A stretch of 64,000 nt of DNA, taken from the NCBI RefSeq assembly GCF_000427095.1, contig NC_021487.1, positions 2,775,241 through 2,839,240 of the forward strand, read 5' to 3'. A program made the translations under genes and the position numbers. The notes under the pieces are model-generated. The model was not told the origin of the DNA. It was given only the letters and a program-made list of their open reading frames with translations, and did not search any database. Positions 6,230 to 13,474 of the stretch are shown here, in pieces. Origin of the DNA: Chthonomonas calidirosea T49. GTDB lineage: Bacteria > Armatimonadota > Chthonomonadetes > Chthonomonadales > Chthonomonadaceae. How positions within the stretch are numbered: the first letter of the stretch is position 1; each line of letters begins with the position of its first letter.

Positions 6230-6934
6230 ATGGATAGAGGGACAAGCGTGATAAGCGAACAGCAGCGCCATCTCCCCGCCAGTCACCATCGTTTTGCGGA
6301 TATGCAAGACGCTGAAATCGTCGCGCAAGCGCAAAAGGGTGACCGTGCTGCCTCGGAATACCTTCTGTATAAGTACCGTAACCTGGTACGCACCAAGGTA
6401 AAGTCCTACTTCCTCGTGGGGGCCGAGCGCGAGGATCTTCTACAAGTAGGCATGATAGGACTGTGGCAAGCGATTGTGGACTTTCGGGTAGACCGTGCCA
6501 TCGCTTTCCCAGCCTTCGCAAAAGTCTGTATTCAACGCCATATCATTACCGCCATTAAAACCGCCACGCGCCAAAAGCAGATGCCTCTCAATACCTCCGT
6601 TCCTCTCGAGGGCCCTCCTGAAGACGCCTCTTCCGACTGGTGCCTCTGCGATATGATCCCCAGCGCCAACGCCCCCGACCCCGAAGAGCTGGTGATCCAG
6701 GGCGAGGACACACGCGCCCTTCAGGAGATGCTGCGGCAGCTGCTCTCGGACTTCGAATGGCATGTGCTTGCCGGCTACCAGCTCGGTAAGTCCTACCGCG
6801 AGATCGCCGAGGAGCTGCGTTGTAAAACCAAGTCGGTGGATAACGCCCTCGCTCGCATTAAGCGAAAGGTCGCGACGCTGCCTTTGGGCGTGGCGAACTT
6901 GAGCCAGCTTTTCGCAAACTCGTCCTCGCGCTAA
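6230..6934 (+). CDS. RNA polymerase sigma factor, SigH-like (sigma-70 family)
   Basis: A 234-aa alternative sigma factor of the SigH/sigma-30 type. Region 2 (about residues 27-90) includes AQKGDRAASEYLLYKYRNLV, the core-binding YFLVGAEREDLLQVGMIGL and the -10-recognition helix. A linker follows, then region 4 with the helix-turn-helix GKSYREIAEELRCKTKSVDNALARIK (about 187-212). In Firmicutes SigH drives stationary-phase genes; the role here is inferred only from the family. A GTG at 6248 is preceded by a better Shine-Dalgarno (AGAGGGAC) than the ATG at 6230, so the true product may be six residues shorter. It has its own promoter and a terminator hairpin at 7022. Confidence 0.9.
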   Translation: MDRGTSVISEQQRHLPASHHRFADMQDAEIVAQAQKGDRAASEYLLYKYRNLVRTKVKSYFLVGAEREDLLQVGMIGLWQAIVDFRVDRAIAFPAFAKVCIQRHIITAIKTATRQKQMPLNTSVPLEGPPEDASSDWCLCDMIPSANAPDPEELVIQGEDTRALQEMLRQLLSDFEWHVLAGYQLGKSYREIAEELRCKTKSVDNALARIKRKVATLPLGVANLSQLFANSSSR

Positions 6935-7718: not shown

Positions 7719-10700
7719 TCACTCCTCCTCCGAGTCTTCCTCGCCTAAATCGAAATGGCGGTCACAAGCCCAAAGATAGGGGCAGCGGCAGCATTCCCAA
7801 GCGTTTCCTTTTGCCGGAAAATCCCCTTGTCGAATGCCTTGAAGTGCCTCTGTGAACTTTTCGATCCGCGCTCTGGCATGCTTAGTTTGCCCTCGTACTT
7901 CTTGTGAGTTGCCATCATAAAGCGAGACGAGCTCGACAACGATTGAATGTTCTGGCCAAGTCTGTGTGGCACCCTCGTACAACAGCGAATAGAGCGGCCT
8001 ATTCTTCTCTTTGTCCTTTAGGGGGCGTGGTTGCCAACAGAGAATCGTTACTTGGGAGTCTGCAACCTCCACCAGCGGAAAAGCGGTACGAACGCTGCCA
8101 CCCCCTAATGCTACAGAGAGTGACCAGCCTGGTTGAAGTTGAGGCCGAGCGGACAGCAGGGTATGGGCGTTCGGCAACAGGACTTGAAGGGCACAGTTTT
8201 GCAGCAACCGCCCGTGCACGTTGTCCGTGGAGAGCCTATGGTTGCGATACTGCTCCAGGAAGTGACTCTTCATGTGATCGCAGGTGGGCGGTTGCCCGGC
8301 ACGTTGTGATTGCAGAAACCAGCGGAATGTGGCGTCAAGCGCCTCGCGAAAACAGAGGTAGGGCGCGCGTTGCGGCTCCTCCACACCTAGGACATAGCGA
8401 TAGTAGTATTGCTTCGGACAGTATCTGAAATAGCACTCTAAAGCAGAGGCTGTAAAGGCCTCTTCAGAGAGTGGACGACCCACTAGCCGATACTCCTTCG
8501 ATCGCGGGGCGGGAACAGCTGTCTCGTTGCTGGCTGACAGAGATGAGAAGACCCCTGGCCATGCTTCCGGCGCACGACGCAAGGGTGTTAGCTCCGGGAT
8601 CTCGTGAAGAAATGGGCTCTCTTGTAACTCACGCCTCCCACGATAGTACGGGGCTGAGAGAAAGAGATAGTCTTTTGCCCGCGAGAGAGCCACGAAGAAA
8701 AGTCGGCGCTCCTCTGCCAGATCATCTTCGTTAGCCGCATGGTCGGCCTGGAGAAGGGCACGAGGAGGAGACACCAACGCAGCACGTCCCCTCGCCGGAT
8801 AGTTGCCTTTGACGATGCCCGGCACGTAGACCGCTGTGAACTCAAGTCCTTTGGCCTGATGAACGGTCATTACCTGCAGGGCGTTCGTATGACAAAGTTC
8901 AGGGGGAAGGCGCAGACGGCGGTTGGTGCCGGTGCGAATCAGCAGACGCGCGTAAGTTACAAATTGGGATACCTCTTGCTCTGTTCTCCCTGGCCAGCCT
9001 AGGGTCATCTGCAAAAACTGGTAGATCGCGGAACGCTGCAGTAGCGCTTCCAAATCGGTTTGGGATTGCAACAGCTCTCTTATCCATCGGCTGCGTTGAA
9101 AGAGATATCGGACGCAAAAGCGCCAAATATCGGCACCCCCCTGCGCACATGCGATGAGGTCGTCCTGAAGTCGTTGAAGGCCGTTTCTTCCCTGCTCGCT
9201 TAGGTTAGGCAGCTGTTGCGCCAACGCAAGCGCCCCGGGAAAGGAGGCGTTGTGAGCGTTCGCTGCTTTTAGCAGCTTCGTAATATCGGCTTCGGGAACC
9301 GCATAGTCCGGCAAAGTTCCTAGGGAGAGGAGAGCTAGGCCGCTGCCACCGCTGCTAAGCGCTAGCAGAGCCATAAGACGGCGCACGGCAGGCTGTGAAA
9401 GCGGGTCGGCGACCAACTGCACGGGCACACCGCGTTTTAACAGGGCGTGTGCGATGGCGGCCGCCTGCTGGTTCTTACGGCACAGCACGGCTTGCTCTTC
9501 AAAAGGAACGCCGCGCTTCTGAAGGAGTCGGGCTGTCTGGGCGATCCAAGCCGTCTCTTCCTCTTCTGTTTGGGGACGCCCGTAGACCACGGCCGCCTCC
9601 GAATGGCCTTGTCGCACGGCCTGCCACTCAGGAGGACGCTCTGCCTCCGACGATGTCTGCGCATTTGACGAATGATCGGCTAGCTGTTTTAACAGGGTTA
9701 GGATGCGTGGATGCGAGCGGTAGTTGTATTGAAGAGCTACACGCTCTAAGCCGGGAAAGAGCTGTTCAAGTTGCTGGAGATTGATAGCGGCGGAGCCGCG
9801 AAAGCTGTAGATGGCCTGTCGGGTGTCTCCTACAAGCCAGAGGCTCTCGCACCTTTCACTGAGCCATCGTAACAAGGACACCGCTGCGCGGTTCATATCC
9901 TGGCACTCGTCCACCAGAATATGTTGGTACTTTGCCTGCCAGCGGTTGCGAGCCGATTGGCTCTTTCTCAGAAGTTCTACGGGGCGCATAAGCAGATCGC
10001 CAAAGTCAAGTGCCCCCTTCTCCTGCAAAAGCTCTTGATAACGACGGTAGATTTCAGCAACAACTAGAGCTACCCGTGCCCGTTTCTGCTCAGTTGGGTT
10101 TAGAGCGTTCACAAGCTCCTTTTCGGCAAGCTCCCGATAGCACTGCGGCCCGCAAAGCTCATCTTTTGCACGGGCAATGCAGGTAACGATGTCTGGCAGC
10201 ACCAGGTCGGGTTGTGCCAAATCGAGCAGCTCTTGAAGATCAAAGGTATCTAGCTCGTTGTACAACAGCAGTGCTGCCTCAAGGGGTTCAAGAAGTTTCG
10301 GAACGGGCGGCAGCCCTAAAAGGTTGGCCTCTAGGCAGATCAGTTCGTAGCCGAAAGCATGGAAAGTACCAATCCAGACCCTGTCGGCCACAGGGCCTAC
10401 CGCCTCTCGCAGTCGCGAGCGCATCTCTTCGGCAGCTCGGTTGGAGAAGGTAAGCGCTAAGATCTTTTCCGTGGGTGTTTTATTTTGCAGCAGATAGGCT
10501 AGGCGGGCAATCAGCGTACGGGTTTTCCCCATTCCAGGGCCGGCCTCCACTAAAAGCCTTTTTTCGGTGGAGACGGCAGCGCGATACTGGCTTTCATCTT
10601 GGGGTGGAGACGGGGAGACGGGAGGTTTGGGGGCAGGTAGGGGAGGCAGCAAGAGTGCACTGGCGAGTTGAGCCCCAACGCACTCCTCAGAAAGGCCGGT

Positions 10701-11219
10701 TTCCGCGCAGATTCGTTGGAAATCCCAGTTCTCCTGCAGGAACGCCTGGCGAAGCCGCGGAGCCGGCAGAAGCAGCTCGGCTGCGTAAAGGTTTGCTTCA
10801 AGTTCCTGGCGCATGCGAGGGCTATAGCTCTGCAGAGTCTGCACCTCCGAGGCCCCGTCGCAAGGCAACTGAAATAGAAGGAGTTGATCTCCCTCCTCTG
10901 CAAAGGAGTCGGTGGAAAGGTCGGGATGGATTTCCAAATGGGCGAACTCGTGGGCTCTGGAAAAGCGCTGGCGTTCCGGCGAGATGCCCGGCCCGCTCGC
11001 ATAGTAGATCACGTTGAAATCTCTCTCTAAAACGGCCAGGGCGCCTGCTAACAGAGAGTCCGTGGGGGCCAGCGGATGCTCCTGAAATCCCGTTTCCTCG
11101 CAAAGGGCCTTTAGCACCGCTTCGGCGGGCGCAAGCACAGGTGTATCAGGAGGCATAAGCTTGCGCAGGCGCTCATGCCTCTCGTCGGCGCGGCGTTTTA
11201 AGTCGGTCCAATCCGGCAT
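7719..11219 (-). CDS. ImmA/IrrE metallopeptidase - UvrD-like helicase - RecB/AddB-like nuclease-domain fusion
   Basis: A 1166-aa three-part protein. Residues about 35-160 form an ImmA/IrrE-like zinc peptidase: the HEFAH motif at 90-94 followed by LEIHP, and a downstream ELEANLYAAELLLP segment supplying the third ligand. From about 205 it is an SF1A (UvrD/Rep) helicase with GPGMGKT (about 227), LTFSNRAAEEM (motif Ia), ILVDECQDMN (motif II), GDTRQAIYSFRG (III), YNYRSHP (IV), VMTVHQAKGLEF (V) and FFVALSRAKDYLFL (VI). The last ~270 residues resemble the RecB/AddB nuclease domain with the iron-sulfur cysteine layout (ALECYFRYCPKQYYYRYVLG; CCRCPYLWAC near the end), but the acidic-lysine catalytic motif is not recognisable. 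ATG 11219 has GGAGAGG upstream; a GTG at 11237 abuts the previous stop. The partner gene lies 18 bases upstream. Confidence 0.85.
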   Translation of the reverse strand: MPDWTDLKRRADERHERLRKLMPPDTPVLAPAEAVLKALCEETGFQEHPLAPTDSLLAGALAVLERDFNVIYYASGPGISPERQRFSRAHEFAHLEIHPDLSTDSFAEEGDQLLLFQLPCDGASEVQTLQSYSPRMRQELEANLYAAELLLPAPRLRQAFLQENWDFQRICAETGLSEECVGAQLASALLLPPLPAPKPPVSPSPPQDESQYRAAVSTEKRLLVEAGPGMGKTRTLIARLAYLLQNKTPTEKILALTFSNRAAEEMRSRLREAVGPVADRVWIGTFHAFGYELICLEANLLGLPPVPKLLEPLEAALLLYNELDTFDLQELLDLAQPDLVLPDIVTCIARAKDELCGPQCYRELAEKELVNALNPTEQKRARVALVVAEIYRRYQELLQEKGALDFGDLLMRPVELLRKSQSARNRWQAKYQHILVDECQDMNRAAVSLLRWLSERCESLWLVGDTRQAIYSFRGSAAINLQQLEQLFPGLERVALQYNYRSHPRILTLLKQLADHSSNAQTSSEAERPPEWQAVRQGHSEAAVVYGRPQTEEEETAWIAQTARLLQKRGVPFEEQAVLCRKNQQAAAIAHALLKRGVPVQLVADPLSQPAVRRLMALLALSSGGSGLALLSLGTLPDYAVPEADITKLLKAANAHNASFPGALALAQQLPNLSEQGRNGLQRLQDDLIACAQGGADIWRFCVRYLFQRSRWIRELLQSQTDLEALLQRSAIYQFLQMTLGWPGRTEQEVSQFVTYARLLIRTGTNRRLRLPPELCHTNALQVMTVHQAKGLEFTAVYVPGIVKGNYPARGRAALVSPPRALLQADHAANEDDLAEERRLFFVALSRAKDYLFLSAPYYRGRRELQESPFLHEIPELTPLRRAPEAWPGVFSSLSASNETAVPAPRSKEYRLVGRPLSEEAFTASALECYFRYCPKQYYYRYVLGVEEPQRAPYLCFREALDATFRWFLQSQRAGQPPTCDHMKSHFLEQYRNHRLSTDNVHGRLLQNCALQVLLPNAHTLLSARPQLQPGWSLSVALGGGSVRTAFPLVEVADSQVTILCWQPRPLKDKEKNRPLYSLLYEGATQTWPEHSIVVELVSLYDGNSQEVRGQTKHARARIEKFTEALQGIRQGDFPAKGNAWECCRCPYLWACDRHFDLGEEDSEEE

Positions 11220-11237
11220 CGTTTCCTCTCCGAGCAC

Positions 11238-11993
11238 TCACCTAGGCCGCATCGCTTCCCAGAACTTCCGATCCTCTTCGCTCAGAGTCGATTCTGAGAA
11301 GAGAGCTTCCCAAAAATCTTGCTGATCGGGAAGTTGCGGAGCCGCTTCCGCACGAAAGGCCGCATTCGGAGAGAGGAAAGGCCGACTCTGTGCAAACGCA
11401 ACGCGTACCTGCTCGATGGAAAGCTCTGCTGCTTCAGCCAGTTTCTGGTAGACGAACTCCGGAACGGAGTCGGGGTGCAGGTGGGCACGCAGCAGCCGAT
11501 TAAAGAAAGGAACTGGCATGTGCAGTGTCTGTGCCCATTGGTGAAGGCTTCGCTTTGTTTTCAGAAGCTTCTGCAAGCGGGTTAGCGTAAGCGGCTGTTC
11601 TTGGAGGGCTGTATCGGAGATCTCAGAGGGTTGTTGGATGTGCTGCGGGGATGCGTCCGCTCTCTCCCTGGTCGGGAAATAGCGCTCGATCGTCTCTTGA
11701 ATGTGCTGTTCGAAGCGGGCCTCTAGTTCCGGCGGAATCGCTATCTCCTCTTGTTCTGCTGCATGAGAGAGGCTCTCGATCTCGATCAGGTTCCAAAGCT
11801 CCTCATGCAGGTATTCAGGGGTCTCGCGCAGCCACTCCTCTAACGTTCTGGTTTGGCCCGATTCTATCTCTGCGTGCCAGCGCAGGTAAAGAAGCTCTAT
11901 CTCCTGCTCTGGGGGAGAGGGCATCGGCCTCACAGAAGATGAGACCGGCCGCTTGCTCCGCTTCCGAGCATCTGTCTTGTCTGCTTCTGACAT
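11238..11993 (-). CDS. Protein with putative XRE-like helix-turn-helix, partner of the peptidase-helicase
   Basis: A 251-aa protein. The N-terminus is basic and disordered. Residues about 31-75 (YLRWHAEIESGQTRTLEEWL, then RETPEYLHEELWNLIEIESL) resemble the short helical module found ahead of regulators and kinases in Planctomycetes and related phyla. Residues about 137-200 (LQKLLKTKRSLHQWAQTLHM, then VPEFVYQKLAEAAELSIEQV) have the spacing of an XRE/Cro-like helix-turn-helix, though divergent. The C-terminus is a third helical segment. It ends immediately before the metallopeptidase-helicase gene. By analogy with ImmR/ImmA pairs it could be the regulator cleaved by the peptidase domain; that is inference. 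Confidence 0.55.
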   Translation of the reverse strand: MSEADKTDARKRSKRPVSSSVRPMPSPPEQEIELLYLRWHAEIESGQTRTLEEWLRETPEYLHEELWNLIEIESLSHAAEQEEIAIPPELEARFEQHIQETIERYFPTRERADASPQHIQQPSEISDTALQEQPLTLTRLQKLLKTKRSLHQWAQTLHMPVPFFNRLLRAHLHPDSVPEFVYQKLAEAAELSIEQVRVAFAQSRPFLSPNAAFRAEAAPQLPDQQDFWEALFSESTLSEEDRKFWEAMRPR

Positions 11994-12171: not shown

Positions 12172-12900
12172 CTAAGGCGCTATCTCATGGTCGATCATCA
12201 CCTGTTTAATCCGCTGGATCATGTTTCTCACCGTTCTATCAGTACAGTTAAGTTCATTGGCTATCTCGGCTTGGCTGTAGCCATCCCTTAAGAGCTTCAC
12301 GATACGGGTCTGTTTTGGTGTAAGCGCCTGAAATAACTTCTCCACACTTAGTCTGTTTAAAGCTTGGGTGATGATGTCGGCTTCGCAGTCCGCCGTTGTC
12401 TCAATGGGCGCTGCGGCATCCTCATAAGCGGCGACTTCTAACGATATGACGTTTCCTTGCTGGCGCTTTAGTCGCTGGAGATATTTAGAAAAAGTTCGTT
12501 TTAAAGCCGCAATAAAGTTGCAACACCAGAAATAGTGGCTATCCAAGTTGCCCTGAGCGAGCTGCATGCCCACTTCAGAGACGATCTCGTTGCTACACTC
12601 CTCGCAATCGGGGACGGCTGCCTTTTTACACAGCCGATAGGCCCGAACTTTGACTCGCTTTAGGATCACTGCTAGAAGCCTTTTCGCCTCTTCTGGTTGT
12701 GTCTCATCTCGCCGGCGGAAAAAAAGTTCAACAAGAGCTTCCGTGTAGATATAGCCGGGTTGTCCATAAGGTATTCGAGCGAATCGCTCTACGTAAGAGA
12801 GGGACTCCCGAAGCAGATCCGTAACTTGCTCATCTATTTGGCTGTTGCGCTCATACTTTTTACGGAGCGGTAGTTCAACCAACTCTTCATTGTCGCCCAC
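12172..12900 (-). CDS. Sigma-70-like factor with C-terminal region 4 HTH
   Basis: A 242-aa protein whose last ~60 residues form a clear region 4/LuxR-type helix-turn-helix (LTPKQTRIVKLLRDGYSQAE, then IANELNCTDRTVRNMIQRIK). The N-terminal part is helical and basic, with a short cluster CKKAAVPDCEEC (about 90-105), and only faintly resembles region 2. It could be a divergent sigma factor or a sigma-like DNA-binding regulator. It points toward the XRE-like gene with 178 bases between them. The gap has no other gene. Confidence 0.6.
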   Translation of the reverse strand: MGDNEELVELPLRKKYERNSQIDEQVTDLLRESLSYVERFARIPYGQPGYIYTEALVELFFRRRDETQPEEAKRLLAVILKRVKVRAYRLCKKAAVPDCEECSNEIVSEVGMQLAQGNLDSHYFWCCNFIAALKRTFSKYLQRLKRQQGNVISLEVAAYEDAAAPIETTADCEADIITQALNRLSVEKLFQALTPKQTRIVKLLRDGYSQAEIANELNCTDRTVRNMIQRIKQVMIDHEIAP

Positions 12901-13195
12901 GGATTTTCCCTTTCCTAGAAAATAGGCTTACGAATGACACAGCTGATCAACATTAGGTTACCCAAATAGAGAGAAACTCCTGCTCTATTTCGCAAAAAGC
13001 TCCCGTTTACCCATATGTGGCCAATTTGGGGGAAGAGGAACGAAAGGGAACGGGGCTAAGGGGCGGTTTGTATCTCAAAAAAATGAAAATATATGGAATA
13101 AAGAAGACGAGCTAGTAAACCCACTAGGGTCGAGGCATTCCTGCTGTGTACAAGCATGCACATACAGACAACACGACGCAACCATGAGGAAACCA

Positions 13196-13474
13196 ATGTC
13201 ATCATCACAACAATACCAGGCTGAAATCCCAAAGAGGATACGGCTAACTCGACGCGAGAAGGAGATACTCAGCCTCATTGGAGAGGGCCATCCAAGTAAG
13301 CGTGTTGCCGAGATGCTTTTCGTAAGCAAGCGTACGGTGGATTTTCATTTAGACAATATCTATCACAAACTTCATGTAAAAAACCGCCTCCAGGCCTTGC
13401 AGTTGGCTCGGAGACTGGGTCTTCTTAGCGCTTCAGAGGTAGGAGACTCCGGTGTCGGTCTTGAGGAGCCGTAA
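13196..13474 (+). CDS. Small LuxR-type helix-turn-helix protein
   Basis: A stand-alone GerE/LuxR DNA-binding domain of about 92 aa: LTRREKEILSLIGEGHPSKR followed by VAEMLFVSKRTVDFHLDNIY. No receiver or ligand-binding domain is attached. The start at 13196 follows a GAGGA five bases away; ATG 13184 is an alternative adding four residues. It is divergent from the sigma-like gene, and the roughly 295-base space between them (12901-13195) shows no other gene. Confidence 0.8.
   Translation: MSSSQQYQAEIPKRIRLTRREKEILSLIGEGHPSKRVAEMLFVSKRTVDFHLDNIYHKLHVKNRLQALQLARRLGLLSASEVGDSGVGLEEP

Follow-up and report, generated by a model that had tools for sequence, protein, structure and literature searches.

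IrrE/PprI and CapP cut XRE-fold partner proteins when bound to single-stranded DNA (excerpts of PMC10904395 and PMC13373217), and three families of DNA-damage controllers encoded ahead of immune operons, CapW/BrxR, CapH+CapP and CapK+CapS, are listed as of mid-2026 in the sections of PMC13373217 used here. We describe a related arrangement in a 64,000-nucleotide stretch of Chthonomonas calidirosea T49 (NC_021487.1, positions 2,775,241 to 2,839,240; hereafter the window), which is part of one 3,437,861-base Armatimonadota contig. Three minus-strand genes lie there in series, at 12900-12172 (242 amino acids), 11993-11238 (251 amino acids) and 11219-7719 (1166 amino acids), encoding an extracytoplasmic function (ECF)-type sigma factor-like protein, an XRE-fold partner and an M78 peptidase fused to a UvrD-type helicase. 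On balance we lean towards the reading that the three genes form one switch, in which a DNA-activated protease would cleave the partner and free the sigma factor.

Like CapH+CapP, the unit sets an M78 peptidase beside an XRE or helix-turn-helix (HTH) partner, upstream of ubiquitin-like (Ubl) operons in the plasmid and Pseudomonas loci described below, and in PDB its peptidase is matched best by CapP. However, CapH+CapP is a two-gene unit with neither helicase nor sigma factor, whereas here a helicase/iron-sulfur (Fe-S) part of ~950 residues is fused to the peptidase, the partner carries its HTH centrally and the unit always includes an ECF sigma gene. The HExxH plus Glu peptidase and the XRE-fold partner are shared with IrrE (PprI)/DdrO of Deinococcus and ImmA/ImmR of ICEBs1; unlike those pairs, the present unit has a helicase and no GAF-like sensor domain, a putative sigma output, and a partner that has an additional helical domain at its N-terminus and ends in a conserved tail. 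CapK+CapS and CapW/BrxR are similarly encoded ahead of Bil, Bub and CBASS operons (same sections of PMC13373217), but they are kinase/STAS or WYL proteins and not a peptidase-helicase with a sigma factor. The helicase fold and a C-terminal four-Cys domain are also found in PcrA/UvrD and the AddB/AdnAB helicase-nucleases, from which our protein differs by its N-terminal peptidase and the absence of catalytic nuclease residues. Neither a UvrD-fused protease nor an ECF sigma factor is named among the controllers in the sections used of PMC13373217 (June 2026), a mention in the primary papers on Bil or Bub being possible, and the text of Iyer 2006 (PMC1779556) makes no mention of a UvrD, helicase or sigma gene in the type 6e operons. 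The features of the window unit are as follows.

12172 to 12900, minus strand: ECF-type sigma factor-like protein, 242 amino acids, first gene of the unit (family profile, TIGR02937, kept position)
11238 to 11993, minus strand: partner protein, 251 amino acids, putative peptidase substrate and sigma inhibitor (kept adjacency and co-occurrence; mean predicted local distance difference test score of the model 83.8)
11382 to 11597, minus strand: XRE-fold domain of the partner, residues 133-204 (PDB profile matches and structure matches)
7719 to 11219, minus strand: M78 peptidase, UvrD/PcrA-like helicase and Fe-S (PD-(D/E)XK-derived) protein, 1166 amino acids (start ATG 11219; longer alternative GTG 11237)
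10635 to 11219, minus strand: M78 (ImmA/IrrE-type) peptidase domain, residues 1-195 (PF06114 over cut-off and PDB profile matches)
10938 to 10952, minus strand: HEFAH zinc motif, H90-H94 (H, E and H unchanged across 27 homologues)
10803 to 10805, minus strand: Glu139, third zinc ligand, in ELEAN (unchanged across 27 homologues)
8550 to 10610, minus strand: superfamily 1A (SF1A) helicase core, residues 204-890 (Pfam; UvrD, PcrA and Rep in PDB; structure match to Deinococcus radiodurans UvrD, Z 37.8)
7755 to 8462, minus strand: AddB-like Fe-S domain with a degenerate PD-(D/E)XK fold, residues 920-1155 (Cys 934, 1143, 1146 and 1152)

A single frame of 1172 codons holds Peptidase_M78 (E-value 9.5e-11), UvrD-helicase (8.5e-61), UvrD_C (5.4e-36) and PDDEXK_1 (1.5e-6), each over its Pfam cut-off. 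Translation probably begins with the ATG at 11219, giving 1166 residues, since a GGAGAAG resembling a ribosome-binding site lies directly 5' of it and homologues begin with MPD or MSD; with this start 18 base pairs separate the gene from that of the partner. The peptidase domain scores 42 bits with PF06114 (cut-off 22), and its best profile matches in PDB are CapP (7t5t, 8.9e-10) and IrrE (3dte, 2.8e-8). A preliminary description had recognised an HEFAH zinc peptidase, and its ligands are indeed complete: H90, H94 and E139 do not vary among 27 aligned homologues, nor do E91 and Y132. The full set of SF1A helicase motifs announced there was also found, with Walker A (GPGMGKT, 227), a DExQ-type motif II (DECQD, 437), TVHQAKGLEF (785) and VALSRAK (843), motifs V and VI included, and the protein is not a PcrA orthologue because it scores far under the cut-off of the NCBIfam PcrA equivalog (292 against 911 bits). 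The C-terminus had been taken for an Fe-S nuclease, of which the Fe-S part stands, the AddB-type pattern C934/C1143/C1146/C1152 being present in 32 of 32 aligned homologues, and the nuclease part falls: the (D/E)xK of the catalytic strand is absent from all 32, indicating a nuclease-derived Fe-S domain and not an evident nuclease. By this alignment, nuclease activity was very probably lost long ago. For the window protein PADLOC named nothing beyond generic GajB/DRT helicase models, and Gabija was rejected because the GajB models match only as generic UvrD and the neighbouring gene is XRE-like, not GajA.

The gene directly upstream, described earlier as a divergent HTH protein, was confirmed as such by its XRE fold, similar to those of DdrO and ImmR, both known substrates of M78 peptidases. 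A Pfam scan of its 251 residues matched no family. The PDB matches of a profile made from 27 homologues were mainly XRE-type chains, in the same region each time, and with VIA-align the predicted structure matched XRE repressors over ~65 residues (133-204) at Z 5-6.6, including ImmR (7t8i, Z 5.7) and DdrO (6jq1, Z 5.1), scores that are modest because the domain is small. Foldseek against PDB gave nothing below E 0.001, only the XRE domain being matched, by VIA-align. Outside this domain, the partner carries the N-terminal helical domain already mentioned and the conserved tail PPTL..ASYR..P....F..AL...WL. A peptidase nearest to CapP and IrrE and a partner nearest to the DdrO and ImmR folds, that is, to known DNA-damage switches, support the switch reading.

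The profile of the sigma family aligns with full-length ECF sigma factors (SigE, SigH and CnrH; best 1.1e-11) over positions 68-249 of 254, covering regions 2 and 4. TIGR02937 was matched by 32 of the 35 family members at E<=0.001, the window protein itself falling just under the cut-off (40.1 against 42.9 bits).

The order sigma, partner, M78-UvrD is the rule across Armatimonadota, Chloroflexota, Proteobacteria and one cyanobacterial plasmid, and the genes overlap or abut in most loci. The pairing of protease and partner suggested previously withstands both refuting conditions set for it: the zinc ligands are complete, and the upstream gene adjoins the homologues in most genomes or lies elsewhere in the same genome. 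Of 291 Armatimonadota genomes, 47 have the fused protein (45 by direct observation, with G012 and G013 counted from congeners), nearly always as one copy in one frame of 1000-1300 residues, and the partner profile was positive in 40 of these 47 against none of the other 244 (Fisher p 2e-42). The partner is likewise present in all 48 Chloroflexota genomes (380 in total) with the fused protein, against 11 of 332 others (p 1e-50), these 11 showing no helicase by the strict threshold applied; both p-values treat related genomes as independent and thus overstate the significance. Sigma and partner genes stay neighbours even when the helicase gene lies elsewhere (L164-L168 in Armatimonadota, L211-L218 in Chloroflexota), and such persistent adjacency, judged from gene order, is typical of a sigma factor and its anti-sigma factor.

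Copies with a damaged peptidase amount to natural knock-outs. Four fully read Armatimonadota copies have no catalytic Glu (L059 and L068 with HHFAH, L066 with HAEAH, L065 with HAIGH), and none has sigma and partner genes beside it. By genome, the dead-peptidase copies, which are paralogues or orthologues, are L059 in G025, L065 in G003, L066 in G021, L068 in G024 and L177 in G022, HADAH being among their motifs; where complete, they keep the helicase and the Fe-S domain, and they have neither sigma nor partner. No partner was found anywhere in the genomes with dead copies only (G003, G022, G024 and G025), so that the partner occurs in 40 of the 43 genomes that have a live copy and in 0 of 4 dead-only ones (p 2e-4), the three live-copy genomes without it being incomplete or broken assemblies. 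The peptidase has been lost at least twice independently, because L065 clusters in the tree with live copies, away from the other dead ones. All Chloroflexota copies inspected keep HExxH and have the partner in the genome. The peptidase has thus stayed intact only in the company of the partner, which would be expected were the partner its substrate.

The unit is also associated with Ubl conjugation operons, BilABCD or polyubiquitin (type 6e; Iyer 2006, PMC1779556), found directly downstream of it or divergent from it on many plasmids. Around 90 plasmid records carry the fused protein over >=80% of the query, and in nearly all of the 12 plasmid loci examined sigma and partner genes precede it. 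Multiubiquitin-E1-DUF6527 operons follow in L152-L156 and L162 and are divergent in L163; a Bil operon follows in L157, L158, L159 and L161, and PADLOC recognised BilA-D among the Xanthomonas genes (5e-57 to 6e-175). In an Aquincola plasmid (L160:12275-12604) only a BilA remnant of 109 amino acids was found after the unit, and E2, JAB and E1 were not found. Ubl operons also adjoin the unit in Chloroflexi GWB2_49_20 (L072), an alphaproteobacterium (L076), Aeromonas (L075), Mesorhizobium (L077) and the Armatimonadota genome G021 (L044), and Bil does so on two distinct branches of the helicase tree. An unbiased search with the partner in 249 Pseudomonas genomes gave four positives, of which the three newly found all had Ubl genes directly downstream, the patchy presence indicating mobility. 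The Leptolyngbya plasmid locus L156 and Mesorhizobium L077 are 70.7% identical across the peptidase-helicase junction, which points to a recent transfer of the operon between phyla. As for phages as carriers, no phage record covers this junction. A complete Bil operon is present in the Armatimonadota genome G097 (L171), with no sigma-partner-M78UvrD on the same 8.8-kilobase contig. The idea of a self-contained defence unit finds no support in the window genome (G000), where a search for BilD, the Bil E1, gave no match and no Bil or polyubiquitin-like genes lie beside the unit within the window, yet the unit does head Ubl conjugation operons on plasmids and in Pseudomonas.

A promoter-like element was found in these operons. 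The pattern TT(A/T)CCG(G/A)-N-CGATT, with a spacer N of 16 or 17 and a fixed length (27-28 bases), occurs in 11 of the 16 gaps between helicase and Ubl genes (0.03 expected from dinucleotide shuffles) and also 5' of the sigma gene in four loci, while TTTCCG-N-(C/G)AGT precedes 11 of 31 Armatimonadota sigma genes (0.11 expected); the patterns were derived from the same data, making the enrichment figures optimistic. In three held-out Pseudomonas loci the element was exact in two and had one change in the third, in the second half (CGATC). Seven Armatimonadota loci encode, divergently from the sigma gene, a member of a family of small helical proteins (~95-170 amino acids), with a TTTCCG-type element facing it in four of them; this family might be a second target. 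Their genes are:

L032:6010-6294
L041:11088-11423
L045:8088-8420
L051:12032-12553
L061:7280-7675
L167:2350-2727
L175:3058-3426

In the switch that we favour, the XRE-fold partner would act as an anti-sigma factor and keep the co-encoded ECF-type sigma factor inactive. The M78 peptidase, to which the helicase and a DNA-binding Fe-S domain are physically joined, would be turned on when the helicase part meets DNA in an unusual state (single-stranded, with ends or stalled forks, or incoming), and it would then cut the partner and release the sigma factor to transcribe from TTTCCGG-type promoters. The targets on plasmids and in Proteobacteria would include the Ubl conjugation operons (Bil or polyubiquitin/E1/DUF6527), and those in Armatimonadota the unit itself in many species and the small divergent gene in some.

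Several observations weigh against this model. Partner cleavage, activation by DNA, and anti-sigma action with sigma release are all inferred from the genes. The window's own sigma gene has no such element upstream, a scan of its own genome gave 25 one-mismatch matches, the level of the reversed control, and the Chloroflexota sigma genes show no clear enrichment (4 of 19 against 1.6 expected). The helicase persists with a dead peptidase and no partner, and must then also act alone. Finally, the XRE domain of the partner is basic in most members, which would also suit DNA binding in place of sigma binding.

This last point, together with a fold like those of DdrO and ImmR, agrees with a system of the CapH or DdrO type, in which the partner would be a DNA-binding repressor of the promoter, cut by the M78 peptidase, and the sigma-like protein an activator that operates after derepression and not a captive; CapH+CapP work in this way ahead of Bub and CBASS operons (PMC13373217, in the sections used). 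We regard this as unlikely, though deserving serious consideration, since sigma and partner genes are inseparable even when the protease gene is elsewhere, and the element, with two half-sites at a fixed spacing, resembles a sigma promoter and not an inverted-repeat operator. The helicase might instead be the effector, attacking or processing incoming DNA together with the Ubl system, while peptidase and partner merely tune its level. The retention of helicase and Fe-S domain in the dead-peptidase paralogues and the plasmid position beside defence genes fit this idea, which we nevertheless find improbable: no homologue examined retains the nuclease residues, so that DNA destruction would require another enzyme, and several Armatimonadota families in which no Bil system was found have the unit almost universally and as one copy. 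Least probable by our estimate is a housekeeping DNA-repair helicase whose neighbours merely set its expression and whose Ubl link is secondary and plasmid-borne, as vertical, mostly single-copy inheritance in the relatives within Chthonomonadales and the standalone occurrence in Acidobacteria and Roseiflexus loci (L073, L074) might suggest, because the partner is strictly lost with peptidase activity and Bil lies beside the unit in two helicase-tree branches.

It is in our opinion an even call whether the switch adds a fourth family to the DNA-responsive controllers of immune operons, one that would be the first with a helicase built into the protease and a sigma output freed by cleavage of its inhibitor, would have stood alone ancestrally in Armatimonadota and Chloroflexota and would have been taken up by mobile Bil and polyubiquitin operons. 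If so, it would add a controller that couples the engagement of DNA by a helicase directly to a protease and a sigma factor, and the Bil and polyubiquitin operons would gain a regulatory front end, testable with a simple reporter. The stand-alone form in Armatimonadota and Chloroflexota would allow study of the ancestral role of the switch.

Other candidates were set aside. Replacement of the SOS response was ruled out by the presence of LexA in the window genome and most relatives, and the SigH-like gene at 6230-6934 is a separate sigma factor, not part of the unit. Both a sigma-like and a LuxR-type neighbour had been put forward as possible outputs: the sigma gene (12172-12900) is a fixed member of the unit, but the LuxR-type gene at 13184-13474, a plus-strand gene for a GerE/LuxR-type HTH protein of 96 amino acids divergent from the sigma gene, does not recur beside homologues. 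Among variants of the unit, peptidase and helicase are in two overlapping frames in L069:9230-12536 (G019), by a frameshift, a sequencing error or a genuine split. Sigma and partner genes are duplicated in tandem before a single helicase gene in L037 and in L039:3767-11260, the order in L039 being sigma-partner-sigma-partner-partner-M78UvrD.
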